Below are positions 2,925 to 42,417 of a stretch of 55,001 nt of DNA, in pieces. The position numbers and the translations under genes are program-made. The notes under the pieces were generated by a model, which worked only from the letters and a program-made list of their open reading frames with translations, was not told where the DNA came from and searched no databases. The DNA comes from Lentisphaerae bacterium RIFOXYC12_FULL_60_16 (GTDB taxonomy: Bacteria; Verrucomicrobiota; Kiritimatiellia; UBA8416; YA12-FULL-60-10), in the NCBI GenBank assembly GCA_001803315.1, contig MHBQ01000005.1:1-55001 (forward strand), written 5' to 3'. The first letter of the stretch is position 1. Every line of letters starts with the position of its first letter.

Positions 2925-4289
2925 CTACCAGAGATCGGATCGATGAACCATGTACAGCGGCAATGAGGTCATCGTGAACTCGACGGGCATGACGCCGTCT
3001 CCGCGAGGCGCAGCACAGGCAACGGTTTGCCTGGAGGGTTTATTCAAATCGTACCGCACCGCCCGGGACACCTGCTTATGCAGGATGAACTGGTGTAACG
3101 ATTTAAGGGCACCGCTTTGGCCGGCTTTCACTTCGATGGGCAGCACGCCACCGGCATCTGCGGCCAGAAAATCCACTTCCGCATTCCCGGTCTTGCCTTC
3201 TCTCAACCAGTAAAAAAGCTCCGGTGCACAGTTCACCCGTCCGGCGAAGTACAAGTGTTGGGCGACGAATTGCTCCGCCACGTTGCCCTTGTTGATGAAG
3301 TCCAGGCCCCGGATCACTTCGGGGGCAATATACTTGGTACCGCACAGGAAATTCAGAAGACCGACATCCAGGAAATAGAGCTTGAAGAACTTGGGGTTGA
3401 CGGTGGCGTTCAGCGGCATTCCGGATGCATCGGAATGTGTCACCCGATAGAGGACGCCGGCCTTGACCAGGAGGTCAATCGCTTCGCGCACCTGCCGGGC
3501 CGGACGATGGGGGTCGATATTGGAATACTTGACCTTGGCGCCGGCCTTTACCGGGACATGGCGAAAAAGGTTCTGGAGGAGGGTCAGCTGGCTGTCGCGC
3601 GCATACTTGGCGAAATCATCCTGATAGGTCTCACAGATCGAGGCCTGAACGTCCAGTATCTTGTCAAGGTCGTGTCCATCCACGGACCTCTGTACGGCTT
3701 CCGGCATACCGCCGACAACGAAGAATTCACGGAGTGCGGCCAGCAGTTTCTCGTGCGCGGCATCGGAGAACGTGTCGTTCCAGCCGAAATCATCGATCAA
3801 GTCGAGGAGGCGGTTTTGACCATGAGCCAGGAGATACTCCTGGAAACTCATCGGACCGAGGAACAGGTATTCTACCCGTCCGACAGGCATTTCGAAATTG
3901 TGTTTTGCCAGAACGAACTCAAGCAATGAACCGGCGCTGACGACCGGCAACTCAGGCATGTCCTCGAAAAAGTAGCGCAGACAGGGAATGGCTTCCGGTG
4001 TCGCTTGAATCTCATCCAGGAACAGGATCTTGCCATCGGCGGGCGACAGGGATTTGTCCGCGATGATCTCGATCTCCCGGCAGATATCTGCCATCTTCTG
4101 TGCAGCAAAGAGGTCGTTAAGACGGCGGTTTCTTTCCAGATTTATCTCGATCAGATCGAGGCCTTGCTCCCGGGCAAAATTCCTGACCAGCGTGGACTTG
4201 CCCACCTGTCTTGCCCCGCGGATGACCAGCGGCTTACGTCCGGAATTCTGGTACCAGGCCAGGAGATTTCGTTCCGCCAACCTTTTCAT
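2925..4289 (-). CDS. AAA-14 ATPase with DUF4143 domain
   Basis: P-loop ATPase of the AAA_14/DUF4143 family, a widespread group of unclear cellular role. Walker A is GARQVGKST (residues 25-33, Lys31) and Walker B is ILFLDEIQ (about 88-95). A winged-helix-like middle part and a C-terminal nuclease-like DUF4143 region (about 230-420), with WLREG and EVDFLAAD followed by IEVKAG, resemble the restriction-endonuclease-like fold of this family. The 454 aa length is slightly above the usual size of about 400. It stands alone, convergent with the aldo/keto reductase, and both flanks carry dispersed repeats, consistent with a mobile accessory gene. Family assignment is strong; function is not predicted. 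Confidence 0.9.
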   Translation of the reverse strand: MKRLAERNLLAWYQNSGRKPLVIRGARQVGKSTLVRNFAREQGLDLIEINLERNRRLNDLFAAQKMADICREIEIIADKSLSPADGKILFLDEIQATPEAIPCLRYFFEDMPELPVVSAGSLLEFVLAKHNFEMPVGRVEYLFLGPMSFQEYLLAHGQNRLLDLIDDFGWNDTFSDAAHEKLLAALREFFVVGGMPEAVQRSVDGHDLDKILDVQASICETYQDDFAKYARDSQLTLLQNLFRHVPVKAGAKVKYSNIDPHRPARQVREAIDLLVKAGVLYRVTHSDASGMPLNATVNPKFFKLYFLDVGLLNFLCGTKYIAPEVIRGLDFINKGNVAEQFVAQHLYFAGRVNCAPELFYWLREGKTGNAEVDFLAADAGGVLPIEVKAGQSGALKSLHQFILHKQVSRAVRYDLNKPSRQTVACAAPRGDGVMPVEFTMTSLPLYMVHRSDLW

Positions 4290-6250: not shown

Positions 6251-7445
6251 CTCCGCGCTTTCCTTCCTGAAGCGATCGGATGCGGCGATTGCACGAACCC
6301 TGTCCGCACGCCGGTTCATCGTGGCATGGGCCGCGATCCGGTTGGTTGGGTTCACGGTTCTTGCCGTTGAACCGGCCACGGGTGGTGCCCCGGCGCCGGA
6401 GGTTGAATATCGACATCTGACGGAACCCGGACCCCAGTCGATACACGTGGTTCGTTTCGACCTCTCCCGCGGGGACCTTGCCATGACGGCGACCGTCGGG
6501 GCCGGGGTGTGGGGTAACGAGACCGTGTCGGACATGGTGGCGCACCTGCCGGAAACCCTGGGCCGGCCGGTGGCGGCCATCAACGGCGACTACTTCGAAT
6601 TCAAGGGTGAGCCGAGGTATTACGGGACGCTTCAGGGGATGTGCATCGTGGAGGGTGAGATGGCCGCCTCGCCGCCGGCATCGGCCTTCTGGATTGACGG
6701 GCAGGGTCGGCCCCGTCTTGGCCGTGTCGCGCCACGCCTGGCGGTGACCTGGCCGGATGGCCGTGAAACGCCCTTCAGCGTCAATTGCTCGACGCGGGAT
6801 TTCAAGAGCGAGGTGCGTGCCGTGGACGTGGTGCTTTACACGCCCCGGTTCGGGCAGTCGACCCGGACGGCCCAAGGCGCCCGTGAATGGGTGTTGCAGC
6901 CCGCAGCGCCGGATGCGCCTTGGCTGCCACTGGGTGCCGGAGGAGTCTACACGGCCCGGGTGAGCGAGGCGCGGCTGTCCGGTGATTCCGCGATCCCGCA
7001 CGACGGCATGGTCCTGAGCGTGGCGCTTGCGGCAGCCGGACCGGCGTCCGCCGCGAAGACGGGAGATGCCATGGTGTTCCGTACCGCCTGCGATCCGGAT
7101 ATGACGGGCGTGCCAACCGCCATTGCCGGGGACCCGATGTTGCTTGCCGGCGGCAAGGTGCTGACGAACCCGGCGGTCACGAACCGTGCGCCCCGTACCG
7201 CGGTTGGTCTTGCGGGCAGCCGTGTCTGGCTGGTCGTGGTGGATGGACGCCGGCCGGCCGTGGCGGCCGGCATGAGTCATCACGAACTGGCCGGGTTCAT
7301 GCAGGGACTTGGTTGCACCGATGCCCTGAACCTGGACGGGGGCGGGTCGTCAACGCTTTGGTATGAGGGCGAGGTGCGGAACCTCCCGTCCGGCGGAATC
7401 CCGCGTCGTGTGGGGAATGCCCTGGTCCTGTTGAAGCGGCCATGA
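6216..7445 (+). CDS. Phosphodiester glycosidase-family (NAGPA-like) exported protein
   Basis: Belongs to the family of mammalian N-acetylglucosamine-1-phosphodiester alpha-N-acetylglucosaminidase and bacterial spore or exopolysaccharide phosphodiester glycosidases. Diagnostic segments are PVAAINGDYF (about residues 124-133), APRTAVGLAG and the C-terminal LNLDGGGSSTLWY. A basic N-terminus followed by a hydrophobic run (about residues 35-53) and Ala/Gly-rich residues suggests an exported protein. The start at 6216 has GGAAAG upstream but gives a long basic leader inside the sensor gene; an internal GTG at 6321 is an alternative. At 409 aa the length is compatible with the family. Likely acts on a phosphodiester-linked or decorated glycan in the periplasm. 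Confidence 0.82.
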   Translation: MENRKCRTKPYNSALSFLKRSDAAIARTLSARRFIVAWAAIRLVGFTVLAVEPATGGAPAPEVEYRHLTEPGPQSIHVVRFDLSRGDLAMTATVGAGVWGNETVSDMVAHLPETLGRPVAAINGDYFEFKGEPRYYGTLQGMCIVEGEMAASPPASAFWIDGQGRPRLGRVAPRLAVTWPDGRETPFSVNCSTRDFKSEVRAVDVVLYTPRFGQSTRTAQGAREWVLQPAAPDAPWLPLGAGGVYTARVSEARLSGDSAIPHDGMVLSVALAAAGPASAAKTGDAMVFRTACDPDMTGVPTAIAGDPMLLAGGKVLTNPAVTNRAPRTAVGLAGSRVWLVVVDGRRPAVAAGMSHHELAGFMQGLGCTDALNLDGGGSSTLWYEGEVRNLPSGGIPRRVGNALVLLKRP

Positions 7446-7520
7446 ACGTTTTACACCATGTATGGAAAGGCGGCTGATGTGATGGTTGTACAAGATGCGG
7501 AAAGCGACAGGAGGTTCACC

Positions 7521-9947
7521 ATGAGCGGCAATGATTGGATGAAGCGGAATCGGCTGAAGGTCCGTGCCCTGGTTATGTTGCTGGCCGGCATGGCGGTATG
7601 CGCCGAAGCCAGGGATATACGGCTGGCCGACAAGGGTCAGGCACGGTGCGTGATCGTGGCGCCTGCCGGCTGGACCAATGATGTGGTACTGGCGGACGGT
7701 CTGCCCCAGCAGGCAGTTACCCTGTTGAAAACGCGACGAGCCATCGAACAGGATTCCGTGCGGGACCTGGCGCTGTACCTGGGGAAAATGAGCGGGACGA
7801 CGATCGATATCCTCGAGACGTTGCCGGCAGGCGACCGCCGCGTTCCCGTTTATGTCGGTTCGGCTGCCCGGGCAGTGTTTGGCCCGGCGGGTATTTCGAA
7901 GGCCGGCCTGTTCGGGTTCCGCGTCGTATCCGACCCCAAACGCGGCCTTGGGCTGTATGGCGAATCGGACGTGGGGACCAGTTACGCGATCTATGAACTG
8001 CTGCACCGGCTGGGGTGCCGCTGGTTCATGCCCACGGAGCTTGGCGAGGTGGTTCCCTCCCTGCCGACCCTGGCGGTTCCTGAGATGGACGAGAAACTGG
8101 CGCCGGCCACCATCTGGCGGTGGCGGTACAGCGGCGGGGCCGACTTCAACCGCCGCAATCGGCTTAACGGCGAGATGGGGCCCGTGGTCTGGCTGGCCCA
8201 GGGCGACGGATCGTTTCATCGGTTCTTTACCCAGGAGGAGATCGCGGCCCATCCGGACTGGTCGCACGGGGGTCATCTGCGCCTGGTTCATCCCGAAGTG
8301 GCCGACCATATCGCGGCCAAGATTCTGGCGCAGCTTGAGACCGCCTACGAACCCATGCACAAGGCGGGGCTGCGGCCTGGCTACTCGATCGTGCCGCCCG
8401 ACGGCCAGGTTCCCACCGAGGATCCGATGGCTGCCCCGCACGACCCCGAGCCGCGCGTCTGGGAGCCGGCCGCCGGCCGCTGGTCCGTCACGGACCGGTG
8501 CATTCTCATGCTCACCCGGGTTGCCCAGAAGGTGCGGGCGAAATATCCGGACGTCGCATTCGGCGACCAAGCCTACGTGAACAAGAGTTATCCTCCGGCC
8601 AAGTATCCGGTGCCGAAGGATTTCCGGATCGTCATCTGCCCGATTGATTTCAACCGGCATCATCCGCATGACTGGACGAACCACCCGAACGAATACTGGC
8701 TGCGGGACCTGGTGCAGGGCTGGAACAAGGCCGGCGCCCGGATCAACGCCTACTGGTACGGCATCAACCTGGCCGAGATCAGCGCGCCCTGCCCGTTCAT
8801 CGCCAAGTGGAGCCGGGACCTGGCGCTCCTCCTCGAGAACAACGTCGACGAGTGGGGGCCGGAATATATGAACGGCTGGGAGTCGATGATGCCGGGCTAC
8901 TATCTCTCGATCCGCATGATGTTCCATGCGTCCGAGAAGCCCGCGGACATCCTGGCCGATCTCTGGACGAAGTTCTACGGGGCGGCGGCCGAACCGATGG
9001 CCCGGTACTGGATGGGCGTCGACCGGGCATACCTCGACGCGCGTGAATACGCCGGCAGTCCGTTCGGCTACCTGAAGATCTTCAACCCTGAGGTCATGGC
9101 TACGGCCCGGGCCGACCTCAACGAGGCGCTGGCCCTCTGCCGCACGCCCATGGAGTACCGGCGGGTCAAACTGATTGACGACTCGTTCGAGCTGTTCGAG
9201 CTCTACATGAAGATGCGGCAGGACTGGGCCGCCGGGAACGTGCGCAACCTGGAGGAAGATTACGAGACCTGGGCCTGGGGTGTCCGGCACATGCAGCGGG
9301 AATACCGTGTCCCGATGAGCGGCGGCCGCTACACTCGCAACGCCTACACGGGTGACGGCTATATCCAGGGCCGGCACGGCAACCCGCAGTGGAGTGACGG
9401 CATGTACAGCCCGGGCTACAAGGACGGGGCCCGGATGGAACGCGAATACCTGCGGCACGGCAAGCCGATGATGGAGTGGAAGTGGAAACACAACCCGGAT
9501 CCGGAAGCGGATTCCCTCGCGTGGACCGTGCCGGCATTCGACGACAAGGAATGGCCCACGACCCACGTGGTGCGCGACACCTGGTCGTCGCTCGGGCATC
9601 ATCTCACGATGACGGATGCCCCGTCGGGCCGTTCCGGGCGGATGGCCTACCGTGCCGCGCAGAAGCTGGCCGCCGTGCCGGAGGGGAAGCAGGTGTTTGT
9701 GTGGATCGGTGCGACGGACGGCAGCGCCAAGCTGTTCGTCAACGGGAAGCACGTGAAATACACCGTACCGGGCAAGGGCGAGGAGCGGGATGCATTTTCC
9801 GGTTACTGCCGGCCGGCCCAGTTCAACGTGACCTCGGTGTTGTCCAATGGGGTCAACCAGTTCACCCTGCTTTGCGAACGGACCCAGCTCAACGAGCTGG
9901 GCACCGGCGGGTTGATGGGGCCGGTTGTGATCTACCGGGAGAAATAA
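7521..9947 (+). CDS. Secreted DUF4838 protein (glycosidase-like)
   Basis: About 808 aa. The start at 7521 is supported by CAGGAGG just upstream. A basic N-terminus, the hydrophobic run ALVMLLAGMAV and the AEA cleavage site indicate a signal peptide. Residues about 90-190 resemble the alpha-glucuronidase (GH67) N-terminal domain found in DUF4838 proteins (GLYGESDVGTSYAIYELLHR). The central region (about 350-560; NEYWLRDLVQGW, NAYWYGINLAEI, DEWGPEYMNGWESM) is the DUF4838 barrel. The C-terminus (about 690-800; VFVWIGATDGSAKLFVNG) looks like a galactose-binding jelly roll. Probably a polysaccharide hydrolase with unknown substrate. It follows the NAGPA-like gene in the same direction, separated by 75 bp. 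Confidence 0.85.
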   Translation: MSGNDWMKRNRLKVRALVMLLAGMAVCAEARDIRLADKGQARCVIVAPAGWTNDVVLADGLPQQAVTLLKTRRAIEQDSVRDLALYLGKMSGTTIDILETLPAGDRRVPVYVGSAARAVFGPAGISKAGLFGFRVVSDPKRGLGLYGESDVGTSYAIYELLHRLGCRWFMPTELGEVVPSLPTLAVPEMDEKLAPATIWRWRYSGGADFNRRNRLNGEMGPVVWLAQGDGSFHRFFTQEEIAAHPDWSHGGHLRLVHPEVADHIAAKILAQLETAYEPMHKAGLRPGYSIVPPDGQVPTEDPMAAPHDPEPRVWEPAAGRWSVTDRCILMLTRVAQKVRAKYPDVAFGDQAYVNKSYPPAKYPVPKDFRIVICPIDFNRHHPHDWTNHPNEYWLRDLVQGWNKAGARINAYWYGINLAEISAPCPFIAKWSRDLALLLENNVDEWGPEYMNGWESMMPGYYLSIRMMFHASEKPADILADLWTKFYGAAAEPMARYWMGVDRAYLDAREYAGSPFGYLKIFNPEVMATARADLNEALALCRTPMEYRRVKLIDDSFELFELYMKMRQDWAAGNVRNLEEDYETWAWGVRHMQREYRVPMSGGRYTRNAYTGDGYIQGRHGNPQWSDGMYSPGYKDGARMEREYLRHGKPMMEWKWKHNPDPEADSLAWTVPAFDDKEWPTTHVVRDTWSSLGHHLTMTDAPSGRSGRMAYRAAQKLAAVPEGKQVFVWIGATDGSAKLFVNGKHVKYTVPGKGEERDAFSGYCRPAQFNVTSVLSNGVNQFTLLCERTQLNELGTGGLMGPVVIYREK

Positions 9948-9966
9948 GCCGTCCGTCTGGTCCGGA

Positions 9967-9991
9967 TGGCCGGTCGTGTGATGAAACGGCC
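9967..9991. repeat. Partial copy of the 16.2-kb intergenic repeat
   Basis: TGGCCGGTCGTGTGATGAAAC right after the DUF4838 stop resembles 16215-16235 at nearly all positions. It can also form a weak GGCCG/CGGCC hairpin, but no T-tract follows, so it is listed as a repeat and not as a terminator. Confidence 0.5.
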
Positions 9992-10028
9992 GGCGACGGG
10001 GCGGGTTGGAGTGTTCCCTCGTGATCCG

Positions 10029-11060
10029 TTATCGGATTGCGAAAAGGGTGCCTTGGAATTGAGGCCCGAGGGATCGGGCGCGGAAGGCGTCGAAGAATAC
10101 CGTTCGATCCCCCCCGCCCGTGCAGAATGTCTGGAATGTGAGCCGTGCCGTGGTTCCTGTGGAGACGCATTCGAACGATCGTTTTACCCAGGTGTAGCCC
10201 ACCGTGTAGTTGGTACCCCCCAGCAGGGTGACCCCGTCCATCATCACCCGGAAATCGTTCAGGGAACCGCTCCGGTTACACGCATAGAACGATACGTCAT
10301 ACTTCCACTTTCGCCGGAGTTCCCGCAGGGTCATCGTGTAACTGCCGGCAAACTGCATCCGGAGTTGGGAGTAAGGCGTATAGGGCGGGACGCCGTACCC
10401 GGGATCTTCGGATGTATAGGTGGGCGACCCGCTGATGGCCACGGGAAAGATATCGACCATCGGCGTGACGGGATTGGTGGTGGAGAGGATCTGCAGGTTG
10501 TCCAGCAGGACGGTATTGTCGGCGGCGGACGGGTTCTCAAATTGGATGGTGACGTTGGTGGATGCCGCCTGGAAGACATAGGAGGTGTAGTTGACAAATG
10601 AACCGCTATGCTTGCCCCCGGTGTCGCCCCACACGATATACCCGCCGGCCGTGATGCGCAACCACCCCTCCGGGGTTCCGCTGAGTCGGGAATTTCCCTG
10701 CCAGACAATCACATAGTTCTGCCCCGGGGTGAACCCGTTGACGGTCTGTGAGATTCTGCGCCCCTGGCGCATGCCCACAATCTGGGAGGTGTATCCGGAC
10801 CCGGTTGTGAAGGCGTCGTTGGTGTAATACATGACGCCTGCTTCACCGCTGCCGCTCAAGGTCCATCCGGACAGGGGAGTCTTGAACGTGTTGAGGACCG
10901 TATTGTAGGCGGGGCCGTTGTCTTCGAAGCCGGGGTTGGTGAAAGCCGGAGCGGCGTTGGCGAATGCACCGGTTGCCAGCCAGAGGCAGGCGACCGCCAC
11001 GGTCAGCCGGCTACCTTCAGCGGGATTTTGTCCATAGCGAGAAATGGGCCGACAATTCAC
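10029..11060 (-). CDS. Secreted protein with two carbohydrate-binding-like domains
   Basis: 343 aa with a hydrophobic segment (TVAVACLWLATGAF) and Ala-rich cleavage region near residue 37, so probably exported. Two beta-sandwich-like regions follow. Residues about 38-195 start FTNPGFEDNG and end TVLLDNLQIL, and about 205-343 contain VFFDAFRARS; both are typical of galactose-binding or DUF642-like jelly rolls. The start is GTG at 11058-11060 with GCAGGAG five bases upstream. It is divergent from the AraC-type regulator with only 63 bp between start codons, so that regulator is the natural candidate to control it. No catalytic motif is seen; a glycan-binding role is inference. Confidence 0.7.
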   Translation of the reverse strand: MNCRPISRYGQNPAEGSRLTVAVACLWLATGAFANAAPAFTNPGFEDNGPAYNTVLNTFKTPLSGWTLSGSGEAGVMYYTNDAFTTGSGYTSQIVGMRQGRRISQTVNGFTPGQNYVIVWQGNSRLSGTPEGWLRITAGGYIVWGDTGGKHSGSFVNYTSYVFQAASTNVTIQFENPSAADNTVLLDNLQILSTTNPVTPMVDIFPVAISGSPTYTSEDPGYGVPPYTPYSQLRMQFAGSYTMTLRELRRKWKYDVSFYACNRSGSLNDFRVMMDGVTLLGGTNYTVGYTWVKRSFECVSTGTTARLTFQTFCTGGGDRTVFFDAFRARSLGPQFQGTLFAIR

Positions 11061-11080
11061 GGTACTCCTGCTTTCACCAT

Positions 11081-11115
11081 CTATTATCTTGCAAATACGA
11101 ATTTGATAAAATAGC
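11081..11115. promoter_or_regulatory. AT-rich palindrome between divergent genes (candidate operator/promoter)
   Basis: The short divergent gap carries a perfect CAAAT-ACGA-ATTTG palindrome (11092-11105) inside a wider imperfect dyad (CTATTATC ... GATAAAATAG). It is strikingly AT-rich against the GC-rich surroundings. On the minus strand TTTATC and GATAAT are spaced 16 bp and could be a sigma-70-type promoter for the lectin-like gene. Binding by the adjacent AraC-type protein is inferred from position only. Confidence 0.45.
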
Positions 11116-11123
11116 AGAAAGTA

Positions 11124-11954
11124 GTGTACGATACAAATAACGGCATGAATAGTAATGTTCCAATCCGCTATACGGCCCAGCTGGACGGAGTCTATTTCTT
11201 CCGGTCAACGAAGGAACGCAAGGTGAGCCGGCGCGAGGGTGAGCCGGCGATGGTGATCGTCATGCTCGGCGGCATCTATTCCGCACTATGGAAAACGCAA
11301 CGGATTACGGCGAAAGGCGGTGATGTGGTGTGCTGGCACCAGGGGGACCTGCGGATTGAGGAGAACGATCCCGCCCAGCCGACGCGGTGCCTGGTGCTGA
11401 ATATACGCTGGAAGGACCATCCGGAATCGCTGCCCCGGGTGGTCCGGGATGCTGCCGGTCTCATGCGGATGCTTGCACTCCGGATTTTCGCCATGACCAA
11501 GGATCCGCTTCCTTCGCCGGTCGAATCATGGAATGTCTATCTTCACGCGCTGCTGGCCGAGTATGTCAGGATGAGCCTGCACCGGGCCAAAAGCCTGCTC
11601 GACCGGGTCAACCAGTGTCTCGAGGAACATTTGGCGGAACCGTTTACGTTGATAGACATGGCCCGTTGGATAGGATTGGAACGGCATTATTTTGGACAAC
11701 GGTTCAAACGGGAAACCGGGATGAGCCCCATGCGTTATGTGCGTGCCCAGCGCGTACAACATGCGCTGGGATACCTGGCGACCTCCCCGAGCTGGACCCT
11801 TCGCAAAATCGCACCCCGGATTGGCGTTCCGGATGAAATCCAGTTGCGGCGCCTGATCCGGCAATACACGGGCTTGGGTATTCGTGACCTTAAAGGCAGG
11901 ATCCCGCCTGAAGAAATCCTGCCCTTTGCCCAGTCGCTCACCCGGTGGACATAA
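11124..11954 (+). CDS. AraC-family transcriptional regulator
   Basis: 276 aa. An N-terminal cupin-like sensing region (about residues 10-105; GEPAMVIVMLGGIYSALW, GGDVVCWHQGDL) is followed by a C-terminal double helix-turn-helix (about 165-265; FTLIDMARWIGLERHYFGQRFKRETGMSPMRYV in outline), typical of AraC regulators of sugar utilisation. GTG at 11124 gives the longest form; ATG at 11145 is a possible shorter start. It is divergent from the lectin-like secreted protein and close to several glycan-degrading genes, so it probably activates such genes in response to a sugar. The second helix-turn-helix departs from the consensus (IGVPDEIQLRRLIRQYTG) but keeps the overall pattern. Confidence 0.9.
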   Translation: MYDTNNGMNSNVPIRYTAQLDGVYFFRSTKERKVSRREGEPAMVIVMLGGIYSALWKTQRITAKGGDVVCWHQGDLRIEENDPAQPTRCLVLNIRWKDHPESLPRVVRDAAGLMRMLALRIFAMTKDPLPSPVESWNVYLHALLAEYVRMSLHRAKSLLDRVNQCLEEHLAEPFTLIDMARWIGLERHYFGQRFKRETGMSPMRYVRAQRVQHALGYLATSPSWTLRKIAPRIGVPDEIQLRRLIRQYTGLGIRDLKGRIPPEEILPFAQSLTRWT

Positions 11955-12090
11955 ACTGTCCCGGGATCATAATCGCGATCCTTTCAAAAGGGTGGTGATG
12001 CGGGATAGTTGCCGGACTGAAGCCTCTGCCATGGAACCATCCTGGAAGGTGATGCCGCCAGCCAGTCGGTGTTGGCCCTGTGATAATCAC

Positions 12091-37670: not shown

Positions 37671-37773
37671 AACAAACCACAAAGAAGCAAGAATCGATCC
37701 ATATACATATTAAATCGCAAGAATAATCCCATGGATAATCATGGGAAAACCGACAATCATAAGAGAGAATCGA

Positions 37774-37807
37774 GAGAATTAGGGACAGAGAATTAGGGAC
37801 AGGCACC
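37774..37807. repeat. 14-bp tandem duplication ending in GGGACAGGCACC
   Basis: GAGAATTAGGGACA occurs twice in a row (37774-37787 and 37788-37801); the second copy continues into the GGGACAGGCACC motif also present at 2700 and, with one change, twice at 4382-4415. Confidence 0.8.
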
Positions 37808-37970
37808 TAAAGCTGTGTAGGACGTCACGCTGGCGTTGTAGGTCAGGCATTCGTACCTGAAAATTGTAAAAAGTGGCTTGAATTTCAAAGAACACGGAAT
37901 TTCCCATATTCTCGAAAGTGAAAGTTCATGGATGGTCGGGCCATTAGCAGCCTGTGGGAAAAGTCTGCCA

Positions 37971-37998
37971 TTAGGGTCAGTCCACGTATTAAGGTATT
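37971..37998. repeat. RAYT left terminal inverted repeat
   Basis: Begins TTAGGGTCAGTCCACGTATT. Differs from the reverse complement of the right end at only two of 28 positions. Confidence 0.85.
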
Positions 37999-38034
37999 GG
38001 ACAGGTATTTGGTGATGTGATATAGGCGTAAGGC

Positions 38035-39042
38035 ATGGCGAGAAGACCCAGAATTGAATTTGGCGGGGCGGTATACCACTTGATGAATCGTGGAGATCAT
38101 GGGGAGGAGGTGTTCTCCGACACCCTTGATTATGGTCTGTTTCTCACGGGGCTTGGGGAATGTTGCAGACGGTGCGGCTGGGTGGTACATGCGTACTGTT
38201 TGATGAAGAACCATTTCCATGCGTTAGTGGAGACGCCGGAACCAAATCTGGTGGCGGGGATGAAGTGGTTCATGGGTGCCTACACCCAAACATACAACGT
38301 GCGACACGGTCTCAGGGGGCACCTTTTCCAGGGGCGGTATAAAGCGCAGTTGGTTGAGCCGGAAAGAGGGAGTTACTTCGAGACCGTCGCGACATACATT
38401 CACCTGAATCCGGCGCGGGCAGGCGTCTTGAATCGGGAGTTTCCGGTTCTCGCGGATTATCCATGGAGCAGTTATATATACTATTTACAGAAGACAGGAC
38501 GGCCGACGTGTTTGGAGGTAGGGCGTGTGTTGGGGAACCTGGGGCTGAGGGATGACTCCAAGGGACGAGTCGCGTATGCCGCCTCCTTGCAGGGACGAGT
38601 GGAGGAATTGAGGACAAAGAATGGCAAGAAAATCTATGAGGCACTGTGGAAGCCGATCCGACACGGCTGGTGCGTGGGGACGGAGACATTTGAAGCGGAT
38701 CTGATCGAGAAATTAAGCGATGCGATGGCCGACGGGGAGCGAGCGTCTTATACCGGAGCAGAAACGGTGCGGCACGGGGAGGTGGAGGCGGAGCGACTGG
38801 TTTGCCAGGGAATGAGGCGTCTAGGAATCAAGAACGAGGATCTCCAGGTTCTTAAGCGGGGGGCGAAGGAGAAGGCATTGCTGGCGTGGCGGGTACATCG
38901 AGATGCGATGGTGAGCCACCGGTGGATCGCCGAACGGCTTCAGATGGGAGTGACCGTCAATATAGGGAAGTACGTCCGACAGATATCGGAGAGCAAAGAT
39001 CCAGCGGTCCTGCGCTTACGAAAGACGTTGGAGAATGCTTGA
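38035..39042 (+). CDS. REP-associated tyrosine transposase (Y1_Tnp / TnpA_REP)
   Basis: 335 aa HUH-type single-strand transposase. The N-terminus MARRPRIEFGGAVYHLMNRG and the HUH signature MKNHFHALVETPEP (about residues 57-70) are diagnostic. The catalytic Tyr is probably in the following helix region (FMGAYTQTYNVRHG, about 80-93). HLFQGRYKAQLV and YIHLNPARAGV (about 120-130) are typical of RAYT proteins. A C-terminal DnaA-like helix-turn-helix region (about 220-320) probably binds the ends. It lies between matched inverted repeats, appears intact and may be active. Confidence 0.94.
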   Translation: MARRPRIEFGGAVYHLMNRGDHGEEVFSDTLDYGLFLTGLGECCRRCGWVVHAYCLMKNHFHALVETPEPNLVAGMKWFMGAYTQTYNVRHGLRGHLFQGRYKAQLVEPERGSYFETVATYIHLNPARAGVLNREFPVLADYPWSSYIYYLQKTGRPTCLEVGRVLGNLGLRDDSKGRVAYAASLQGRVEELRTKNGKKIYEALWKPIRHGWCVGTETFEADLIEKLSDAMADGERASYTGAETVRHGEVEAERLVCQGMRRLGIKNEDLQVLKRGAKEKALLAWRVHRDAMVSHRWIAERLQMGVTVNIGKYVRQISESKDPAVLRLRKTLENA

Positions 39043-39069
39043 ACACCTAAATACGTGGACTGACCCTAA
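39022..39069. repeat. RAYT right end, copy 1
   Basis: 48 bp covering the last transposase codons (AAGACGTTGGAGAAT, encoding KTLEN) and the right inverted repeat ending GGACTGACCCTAA. It matches 42370-42417 at 45 of 48 positions. Confidence 0.9.
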
Positions 39070-39109
39070 AACCCTAAAACCTGGTTGACCCAGAGGCGGG
39101 GAGAGACCG

Positions 39110-40168
39110 ATGACCTTTATGCGGTTCAGGGCGGAACAACTGGCGGACTACCTGCGTGAGAGCATTCAGCGGGGCGAATTGCGAGACCCGCTGCCGGCAA
39201 CGCGGGGCTGGAGCAAAGAACTCGGTGTCGGACGTACGACGCTGGACGAGGCGTTGTCCAACCTGCGCCGCGAGGGGTTGGTGACGATCGTGCCCGGCCG
39301 GGGCGTCCGGCTTAATCCCGCCGCTCGTGCCGTTGCCCGACGATCCGCCGGCCATCCCCGACTCATCCGCATGCTCTATAGCGCCCACGACTACCCCTAC
39401 ACGCTTTCCCATCTGAACTGGGTCGCGATGCTGGAAGAACGCCTGTACCTGCATGGCGCGCATGTGAAACTCGAACGGTACAGCGACGCGCGTTGGCCCG
39501 CGATTCTTCGCCGTTCCGGTCCTGGCGAGGAGTTGTTCGTGCTGTGTTCGTTGTCCCCGAAGCGGCAACGCTTGTTCGAGCGCTCCCGAAAGCCCTGTCT
39601 GATTGTCGGCCAACCCGCGCCCGAGGTGTCGTTGCCGTTCGTCCGTTGCGATCATGAAGGGATGATGCGGCACGCGACGCATCGGCTCCTGCGGCGCGGG
39701 TTCGCCAGAGTCAGTTTCGTGGCCGCCCGGTGCGCGGCGCCCGCCATTCCGTTCATGACGGACGTGTTTCGGTCCGCCTGCGCCGAATGGCCGCGTCAAC
39801 CCGTCGACGCGCAGGTGGTGTTGATGCCGCTCGAACTGAGCGCGATGGCGACCGCCGCCCGCCATTTCGCGGCGTCAATAACGGGGCGTCACGGCATCCT
39901 GGTTATGGCGCCCATTCCGGTGGGCATGATTCAGACGGCCATTACGCGATATGCGAGCGGGGCGGCCGGTCAGGTCGAGTTCATCGGACTGCTGACCACG
40001 GAGCCGGACATCGGCGTCTGTCCCCTGCCGGCTCACTATCCGGCTCCCATCGAACGGATCGCCGGAATAGTCGCCAACGCCGCCATCCGCTATTTCGACA
40101 CGGGCGCGCTTCCGACGTTGCGGAAGATCGTCGGCCTCAAGCTGATTCCAGAGAGCTGCCCGGACTGA
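39110..40168 (+). CDS. GntR-type DNA-binding regulator with LacI-like ligand-binding domain
   Basis: 352 aa. The N-terminal winged helix (about residues 5-68; LADYLRESIQRGEL, TRGWSKELGVGRTTLDEALS, GLVTIVPGRGVRL) is GntR-type. The remainder (about 85-345) resembles a periplasmic-binding-protein/LacI sugar-binding domain (KPCLIVGQPAPEV, VRCDHEGMMRHATHRLLRRG). Such chimeric regulators usually control sugar-use genes in response to a carbohydrate. ATG 39110 has GGGGAGAG upstream. It starts 40 bp after the RAYT right end and precedes a hydrolase-like gene in the same direction, so that gene is the likely target. Confidence 0.85.
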   Translation: MTFMRFRAEQLADYLRESIQRGELRDPLPATRGWSKELGVGRTTLDEALSNLRREGLVTIVPGRGVRLNPAARAVARRSAGHPRLIRMLYSAHDYPYTLSHLNWVAMLEERLYLHGAHVKLERYSDARWPAILRRSGPGEELFVLCSLSPKRQRLFERSRKPCLIVGQPAPEVSLPFVRCDHEGMMRHATHRLLRRGFARVSFVAARCAAPAIPFMTDVFRSACAEWPRQPVDAQVVLMPLELSAMATAARHFAASITGRHGILVMAPIPVGMIQTAITRYASGAAGQVEFIGLLTTEPDIGVCPLPAHYPAPIERIAGIVANAAIRYFDTGALPTLRKIVGLKLIPESCPD

Positions 40169-40494
40169 GCGTCGTTCATCCAGGCTTACCAATGATGGAG
40201 TTGAGCGGCGGCCTCCACGGGCAAGATGCAGGCATCTTGCCCGTATTCCTTCGCGTTTGGACACGCGGTTCGCGGCCTTGAAAAAAAACCACCCGTTTGA
40301 CGTTCGCGTTCCTTCCTGTCCGGTCTAGCATTCCTTGGAAGACGTGAAGGGTCATTGTCGGTGAAGACGGGGTCGTCAGCGAACGAACCAGCGGATGGCG
40401 TACCGTCCTTCGCTCTTGACGAATCTTAGCGTGCAGGGATTTTCGGAAATGGGGCGGATTTCCGCGGTCCACCCGAATGAGCGACAGGAGAGAA
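40169..40494. other. Intergenic region with a strong hairpin
   Basis: 326 bp between the regulator and the hydrolase-like gene. It contains the perfect inverted repeat 40217-40244, an A8 run at 40281-40288 and TTGACG at about 40297, which could be a -35 box. No matching -10 at normal spacing was found. Confidence 0.5.
40217..40244 (+). terminator. Perfect 13-bp inverted repeat, possible terminator
   Basis: ACGGGCAAGATGC-AG-GCATCTTGCCCGT, 49 bp after the regulator stop. The stem is perfect but no U-run follows, so it may instead be a repeat or an operator. Pairing is certain; function is not. Confidence 0.45.
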
Positions 40495-42390
40495 ATGAAG
40501 CAACCCTTTGTGCTCGAAACACTCGTCGATTTTCCCGACGACGCGCTCTCGTGCGCATTTCCTCTGACGCCGTCACACCTCGACGCCATGATGGCGACGC
40601 TGGCCGAACAGGGGATCGGTCGTGTGATCTGGGGCTACTACGGCGATGGCCACGGTGGGTGCCTCCTGCCCGATGGCATCGACGATGACCCCAGCATCAG
40701 CTTCGATCAAAACCAGTGGGGCTCCTACGCCCGAACGCAGAAGACGCTGGGGAACCCATTGCGCGTCGCGACCGAAGCGGCCCACCGCCATGGAATGGAG
40801 TTGTACGCCTATTACAAGCCATACGAGACCGGACCCAGCATGTTGTTCGCCGAGGGCTCACCCCAGGCGGCTCAATGGGGCCGCTTGCCTCACATTGGCG
40901 GTTCGCTCGCGTGGATGGACCCCTTCGTCGCCAAGCATCCCCATCTGCGCATCCAACGCCGGACCGACGATTTGCACCCCGATGTGCTAACCGTGCCCAT
41001 CCACACCCTGCGCCTCACGAAGAAGGATGCCACGCCGACGCGGATCACCGCCGAACACCTCCAGATCTGGACCAGCGACCACAATTACCGCTACGTGCGC
41101 CAGCCGGTCCGCTTCGCCTTCGCGGAAACCGTCGAACCTTCGGCAAGCGAGGTCCGCGACATTTACGGCAATGTGCTCACGCGCCAAGACGATCCCGTGC
41201 GCGTGCTGACCCTTTCGGGTCTCGATCTGCGGGACCGATACTTCCTGGTGACCACGGACTTCATCGATGGACCGGGCGACTTTGAGAATGCCTGGGACCG
41301 TATCCTGAGCGCATTTGACGCCAACGGACAGAGTGTGCCGGGCGTTTACGCCACGGGCACGGCTATCTGGTTCCCCGAGTGGGAGGATTTTCGGGAAGGC
41401 GGGCTTTGCTTCGACACGGGGCGCGGTCCGGAAGCCGTGACGCTTGACCTTCCGAACGCGGCTTCGGACGATCGTGAAAAGAAGGGTTCCAACGCCCACT
41501 TCGTGCCGGGACAGAAGAAGGTACGCGGGATCGTAGCGTTCGCTCGCGGCCGCAACGCTTACCTGCCCGGCGCACTGTGCGAAACCGAACCCGAAGTTCA
41601 GGCGTACTGGCTGGCATGTATCAGGGAAATGCTGGACGCCGGCGTGGACGGCATCGAGTTCCGCGAGGAGAACCATTCCACGCACACGGATACGCCCGGC
41701 GATTACGGGTTCAATCCAGCCGTTCTGGCGCGCATTCCCGCGGGTGGTCGCGATCTTCTGGCGGACATCGCCCGGGTGCGGAGCGACGCTTACACGGAGT
41801 TTCTGAGGCGGGCCAAGGCCCTGATCGCATCGCGCAACCGGCGCATGCGCGTAAACCTTAATGTGGACTGGTTCCGACCTGCCGCAGAACGTCCGAACTC
41901 CCGGCGCCTGGCGTACCCCGCCAACATCGAATTTGAGTGGAAACACTGGGTGACGGAAGGACTCATGGATGAAGCCATGCTGCGGGTTTTCGGCAAGCCC
42001 TTCGCGGTCGTTTTCAATGAGGACGCGGTTGCACAGGACATGATCCAAACCTGCCGGGGGCGTGGAATTCCTGTTACCGTAAACCGTTACGTCTGGGGAA
42101 ACCCCGGCCTGCTGGACGAATTCCGGCGCGTGTGCAACGACGGACGGTTCGATGGGTTCGTGCTCTACGAGACGTGGGCCTATCTGGGTTTCACCGCCGA
42201 AGGCGGCTGCGCCATCGCAGGCCCAGGTCACGTGCCGACGACGCGCCTTGCCGCCGAGGTGCGCCAGACAAAGATCCAGACCGGCGCGATGATACTTGCA
42301 GTGGGACACGCGTGGCGCGCTGCACGCAGTGCCATTCCCCCGACAAGCACGGGGTGCGGCCTCACAAATAAGACGTTGGAGAATTCTTGA
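40495..42390 (+). CDS. Glycoside-hydrolase-like TIM-barrel protein with transposase-derived C-terminus
   Basis: 631 aa. The N-terminal part (LTPSHLDAMMATLAEQGIGRVIWGYYGDGHGG) and the central part (VQAYWLACIREMLDAGVDGIEFREENHSTHTD, RMRVNLNVDWFRP) look like a glycoside-hydrolase-like TIM barrel with an inserted beta-rich region (about residues 160-360). Glu/Asp residues in GIEFREENH are candidate catalytic acids. The start at 40495 is fixed by AGGAG. No signal peptide, so cytoplasmic. The last residues KTLENS and the following bases are a copy of the RAYT right end. The authentic C-terminus was therefore lost and replaced, and folding or activity may be affected. Substrate unknown; family assignment tentative. 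Confidence 0.6.
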   Translation: MKQPFVLETLVDFPDDALSCAFPLTPSHLDAMMATLAEQGIGRVIWGYYGDGHGGCLLPDGIDDDPSISFDQNQWGSYARTQKTLGNPLRVATEAAHRHGMELYAYYKPYETGPSMLFAEGSPQAAQWGRLPHIGGSLAWMDPFVAKHPHLRIQRRTDDLHPDVLTVPIHTLRLTKKDATPTRITAEHLQIWTSDHNYRYVRQPVRFAFAETVEPSASEVRDIYGNVLTRQDDPVRVLTLSGLDLRDRYFLVTTDFIDGPGDFENAWDRILSAFDANGQSVPGVYATGTAIWFPEWEDFREGGLCFDTGRGPEAVTLDLPNAASDDREKKGSNAHFVPGQKKVRGIVAFARGRNAYLPGALCETEPEVQAYWLACIREMLDAGVDGIEFREENHSTHTDTPGDYGFNPAVLARIPAGGRDLLADIARVRSDAYTEFLRRAKALIASRNRRMRVNLNVDWFRPAAERPNSRRLAYPANIEFEWKHWVTEGLMDEAMLRVFGKPFAVVFNEDAVAQDMIQTCRGRGIPVTVNRYVWGNPGLLDEFRRVCNDGRFDGFVLYETWAYLGFTAEGGCAIAGPGHVPTTRLAAEVRQTKIQTGAMILAVGHAWRAARSAIPPTSTGCGLTNKTLENS

Positions 42391-42417
42391 ATACCTAAAT
42401 ACGAGGACTGACCCTAA
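42370..42417. repeat. RAYT right end, copy 2
   Basis: Matches 39022-39069 with three changes (45 of 48 identical) in direct orientation, including the transposase tail codons. No transposase body precedes it; it is joined in frame to the hydrolase-like gene. Confidence 0.9.

Follow-up and report, generated by a model that had tools for sequence, protein, structure and literature searches.

Y1 HUH transposase genes lying between long TIRs make up the TIRYT/TIRtron group described by Di Nocera et al. (2013; PMC3733652). That paper reports a GGGGWSAS TIR motif for many, not all, TIRYT members, dispersed TIR families with copies that are single or clustered for some members, and, for TIRYT genes, TIR dimers or clusters. 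Most published TIRYTs fall in subclass 2.1 of the TnpA-REP-like proteins (Quentin et al., 2018; PMC6006769), which are long Y1 proteins with a C-terminal extension and no REPs nearby. Two further groups are close: the RAYT/REPtron systems (Nunvar et al., 2010; PMC2817692), which have a related transposase domain, non-autonomous end repeats in the genome and GTAG-headed hairpins, and the IS200/IS605 elements, which have a Y1 HUH catalytic core and subterminal hairpins, without TIRs.

The window analyzed here, a DNA stretch of 55,001 nucleotides, covers the initial 55 kb of contig 5 in an incomplete genome of 4.09 Mb in 188 contigs. The locus of interest spans 37971-42417 and contains the following features.

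37971..37998, plus strand: left TIR of the TIRYT element, TTAGGGTCAGTCCACGTATTAAGGTATT; homologous TIRs lie at the equivalent place in relatives
38035..39042, plus strand: TIRYT gene, 335-aa Y1 HUH transposase (Pfam Y1_Tnp PF01797, E 1.2e-8)
39022..39069, minus strand: near right TIR unit, 48 nt, covering the last six codons and the stop of the transposase
39110..40168, plus strand: GntR-type regulator (PF00392, E 8.4e-13)
40477..42390, plus strand: ORF for a 637-aa protein of an unnamed family (the "hydrolase"), with homologues in distant genomes
42370..42417, minus strand: distal right-TIR unit, a solo copy that matches the near right unit at 45/48 positions

The transposase retains His60-Phe-His62, Tyr121 and the HLNP motif; H60 and H62 (HUH) and Y121 were invariant in 11 aligned proteins, and a C-terminal WIA.RL.MG segment was conserved in the aligned transposases. 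It is the sole full-length copy of its gene in the genome, with weaker Y1_Tnp matches elsewhere. Its domain is related to that of the RAYT/REPtron systems (NCBIfam REP_Tyr_transpos, 44.6 bits, below the cut-off of 80), and non-autonomous end repeats likewise occur in the genome. However, the gene is flanked by long TIRs (28 nt, 26/28) rather than REPs. Both sequence and folding showed that GT(A/G)G-headed flanking palindromic REPs are absent from the ends, and an assignment of the ends as REP hairpins was ruled out by folding, as their DNA folded no better than shuffles. Long TIRs and the lack of a hairpin also set the window element apart from IS200/IS605, with which it shares the catalytic core.

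As in the TIRYT/TIRtron group, a Y1 HUH gene lies between long TIRs that overlap it and carry a GGGGWSAS-like motif, and solo TIRs are dispersed in the genome. The window core, AGGGTCAG, differs by one base from GGGGTCAG, which is an exact fit to GGGGWSAS and the usual form in relatives, and the incomplete genome yielded just two more solo TIRs. Judged from its sequence, 37971-39069 is a TIRtron, that is, one Y1 HUH transposase gene between TIRs, with the stop codon lying inside the right unit. Since the ends lack a REP hairpin and carry a GGGTCAG-type TIR, the transposase is not a REP-type RAYT, and TIRYT is the more exact name. The label RAYT, given to it by an earlier sequence-only reading, holds for the broad transposase class and not for the REP type. 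Its length, C-terminal extension and lack of nearby REPs resemble subclass 2.1, of which it is a candidate member; a C-terminal helix-turn-helix gave no Pfam match in the window protein even at E 10.

In a repeat search of a 5.5-kb region, the pairs formed by the left, near right and distal right ends topped both the direct and the inverted lists. The left end (37971-37998) and the near right end (39042-39069) are inverted repeats of 28 nt with 93% complementarity (26/28), and 39022-39069 and 42370-42417 are direct repeats of 48 nt with 94% identity (45/48) and a spacing of 3348 nt. The sequence-only reading had described both arrangements, a 28-bp left repeat and an inverted right repeat bounding the transposase and a second right end in the same orientation about 3.35 kb downstream, and was correct in each. 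Between the left and distal right ends, the pairing is 32 nt long (37967-37998/42390-42421, 94%), including four complementary bases outside the TIRs (GCCA/TGGC); the near right end lacks this outer pairing. Beyond the 48-bp unit, no similarity between the near and distal right ends was found in the flanks, and no left end was found near 41-42 kb. Both right units include the final codons of the transposase, reading KTLENA* in the near and KTLENS* in the distal copy, and the distal copy supplies the stop codon and last codons of the hydrolase frame. An 8-nt echo of the TIR edge, AACCCTAA, directly follows the near right unit.

These repeats are not due to chance, because the end motif was found at only five places when all 4.09 Mb were scanned with up to 3 mismatches, with one control match. 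Three of the five lie in the window; the others are solo ends at C42:7852 and C45:4051, on contigs without a transposase gene match. The sequence-only reading had suggested a whole-genome search for more end copies, and these two were its yield. The C42 solo carries GGGGTCAG. The C45 solo aligns without gaps to the whole right unit, and its similarity ends at the inner side within 1 nt of that of the copy at 42.4 kb (...AAGACGTTGG). A genome search with the inner half of the unit returned exactly three right units (near, distal and C45) and zero controls. Furthermore, the distal copy and the C45 solo have TCCTCG in common where the left and near right ends have TCCACG, and they also share the outer bases GAAC.G..ATTAGGG. 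An inner boundary shared at two unlinked places suggests a defined short unit rather than random erosion of a full element; of the two unlinked solos, only C45 is long enough for this comparison.

Two ORFs do lie between the right ends, as the sequence-only reading had it, and the first is a GntR-type regulator; the terms "hydrolase" and "sugar use" that it applied to the second and to the pair, respectively, are unproven, as the 637-aa protein matched no Pfam or NCBIfam family. A solved-structure search with this protein returned nothing meaningful. The GC3 values of the regulator (0.773) and hydrolase (0.748) lie within the range of the flanking genes (0.73-0.83); that of the transposase is 0.652. 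Homologues of the hydrolase, 51-59% identical, occur in four distant genomes, and no window-type transposase was present at these loci. In two of them (L078 and L080), a URO-D-type gene lies downstream, past one large gene. A URO-D-type gene is also found downstream of the hydrolase in the window, but the gene between is shorter, and with identities of 19-29% the downstream likeness is weak and only suggestive. The homologous proteins terminate close to the position of residue 614 in the window protein, whose frame continues for about 20 codons to a stop codon provided by the solo end. Therefore, the solo unit appears to lie within the 3' end of a gene that was already there, or immediately after it. 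The regulator is probably a host gene outside the element, and the 637-aa protein is probably a host gene with its 3' end altered by the solo TIR.

The transposase was searched for in 95 genomes, including that of the window; none of the others belongs to the family or genus of the window, and the closest relatives among them are at the order level. Matches were obtained in 77 of the 95, the best full-length homologue outside the window genome being 48% identical. TIRs were present at 28 of 31 other TIRYT-type loci, most with a GGGTCAG, GGGGTCAG or GGTGTCAG core, and the right TIR usually overlapped the stop codon. Extra end copies near these TIRYT genes have a common outer edge and a varying inner reach (right copies, 42, 47, 44, 313 and 663 nt edge-to-edge; left copies, 17 to 337 nt). 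The loci concerned are listed below with edge-to-edge distances.

L104: one extra end copy, 42 nt
L108: extra end copies, 26 and 47 nt
L111: extra end copies, 26 and 22 nt
L119: extra end copies, 17 and 44 nt
L107: extra end copies, 337 nt and two shorter
L115: one extra end copy, 124 nt
L118: one extra end copy, 313 nt
L120: one extra end copy, 663 nt

Inner extent thus varies among the copies of relatives, and a constant unit of 48 nt is not the general rule. Of 29 loci with TIRs, 14 had tandem repeats (14 nt or longer) directly against the outer edge of a TIR, a count that ignores the L109 rows, which reflect a run of N. At L117, L118 and L120, large 3' TIRYT fragments (277, 306 and 663 nt) lie beside intact elements. 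All three fragments keep an intact outer right edge, and two are in tandem with the intact right edge; the 277-nt right fragment of L117 lies upstream of the intact right edge, 3.3 kb away. At none of the other TIR loci was there a distal right end downstream of the gene with kilobases of other DNA in between. Solo copies were found in relatives as well: G087, a single contig, has three further TIR copies far from the listed TIRYT genes, with a common extended unit of roughly 90 bp as read from the sequences, and G047 has a similar solo-TIR family.

We consider it probable that the locus consists of the TIRtron at 37971-39069 and a solo TIR of about 48 bp, a member of a small dispersed family, at the 3' end of a host gene. 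The solos elsewhere in the genome, the inner edge shared with C45 and the frequent end copies of relatives speak for placing the distal right end in such a family. As this transposase family is known for stray end copies, the regulator and hydrolase are most likely host neighbours rather than cargo. The four bases by which the left and distal right ends pair past the TIR, and the near right end does not, count against the solo TIR, as do the low number of unlinked solos (two) and the varying inner extent of the copies in relatives. An unlikely explanation is that a second complete TIRtron inserted downstream of the hydrolase and then lost all but its last 48 bp. The distal copy would fit such a remnant in being in the correct right-end register, coding bases (KTLENS*) included, and the 277-, 306- and 663-nt 3' fragments of relatives are comparable leftovers; however, there is no left end near 41-42 kb, and a C45 solo with the same inner end would be rare under random deletion. 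The sequence-only reading had offered two insertions, the second having lost its body, as an alternative, which came closer than its cargo model, with the shared inner boundary favouring a defined short unit instead.

That cargo model, in which the regulator and hydrolase travel in a 4.45-kb unit through one-ended or composite mobility between the left and distal right ends, we regard as highly improbable. Y1 relatives and ISEcp1-like elements are able to use surrogate ends, and the distal right end has the same orientation as the near one and outer bases complementary to the left end. However, this four-base match is unspecific, since the distal copy and the C45 solo share outer bases too, and beyond it the model found almost no support. 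The unit is present as a single copy in its own genome, with no sign there of its having moved. The two genes are host-like in GC3, distinct from the transposase. Moreover, hydrolase homologues occur elsewhere without a window-type transposase, twice upstream of a URO-D-type gene, and the C42 and C45 solos have neither transposase nor cargo nearby. The enzyme would have to skip its own right end for one 3.35 kb away, and no other TIR locus shows such an arrangement. Among titles and abstracts dealing with one-ended transposition and passenger genes of these families, none reported cargo. Hardly any credence attaches to a rearrangement independent of the transposase, by which gene conversion or a nested local duplication copied the near right end. 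Both copies do lie in one locus, and local end duplications are common in relatives, but the 48-bp unit alone is shared between dissimilar flanks, and the distal copy has a variant in common with the unlinked C45 solo.

With a dispersed solo TIR as the preferred reading, the outer edge of the TIR would be nicked by the transposase, with the terminal tens of bases passing into a short single strand or repair copy. Rejoined beside the element, the copied end would give tandem end copies; rejoined elsewhere, it would give solo copies, which would thus be products of the transposase. The regulator and hydrolase would lie between the two right ends since the solo unit happened to land beyond them. 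It is possible, and we suggest it tentatively, that TIRYTs duplicate their own ends through nick-primed re-synthesis. Nicking at the outer edge, copying of N bases and rejoining would leave the outer edge constant while the inner one varies (14 to 663 nt), and one displaced copy of this sort would be the solo unit at 42.4 kb.

The locus itself is ordinary, a TIRtron with a solo TIR of an already described TIRYT kind, and it cautions that a transposase and a distal matching end need not mean a cargo transposon. More interest attaches to the tandem-edge pattern of the relatives. In about half of the loci, tandem fragments are anchored at the outer edge, a pattern that could reveal the way in which RAYT-type enzymes give rise to dispersed short repeats; nick-primed copying, if true, would be a direct sequence signature of a RAYT-like protein making non-autonomous repeats. 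Such duplications may be unreported, as the consulted passages of PMC3733652 and PMC6006769 contain nothing on them beyond "dimers or clusters".

Several minor observations were made. The C42 and C45 solos (L135, ~7851-7910, and L136, ~4050-4121) directly adjoin another dispersed repeat, GTTCGTCTGTCYCTGGA. It recurs about six more times without a TIR (up to 2 mismatches) in a mosaic-repeat-like manner. The idea that it forms the opposite end of a miniature element was dropped on that ground, and it probably represents a repeat in its own right. A genome scan with the 10-mer GGGTCAGTCC gave 19 places, most apparently unrelated. Two more end-like motifs, GGGTCAGTCC[CT]TCGAATAACGA, at L076 (C159:3861) and L077 (C177:12947), suggest a second TIR family in this genome. 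AATTAGGGACAGGCACCT, upstream of the left end, was discarded as a candidate for a second family, being unique in the genome. About 170 bp upstream of the left end (37773-37808), AGAGAATTAGGGAC occurs twice in tandem, followed by AGGCACCT, and looks like the stuttered end of another TIR-type repeat. Behind the regulator gene, at 40217-40244, lies a perfect 13-bp inverted repeat with a 2-nt loop (ACGGGCAAGATGC/GCATCTTGCCCGT), which may be terminator-like or a dispersed hairpin.

In the relatives, L151, L155 and L157 (G087) and L140, L146 and L160 (G047) represent solo TIR subfamilies with extended common units, and L157 has a stuttered outer end with tacgaaaagggtctg repeated. At L127 of G066, three TIRtron-like units of one family stand in a row (7062-11956, reverse-complement locus coordinates), as follows.

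7062, 9070 and 10924: left TIRs
8099, 10100 and 11956: ends of the right TIRs
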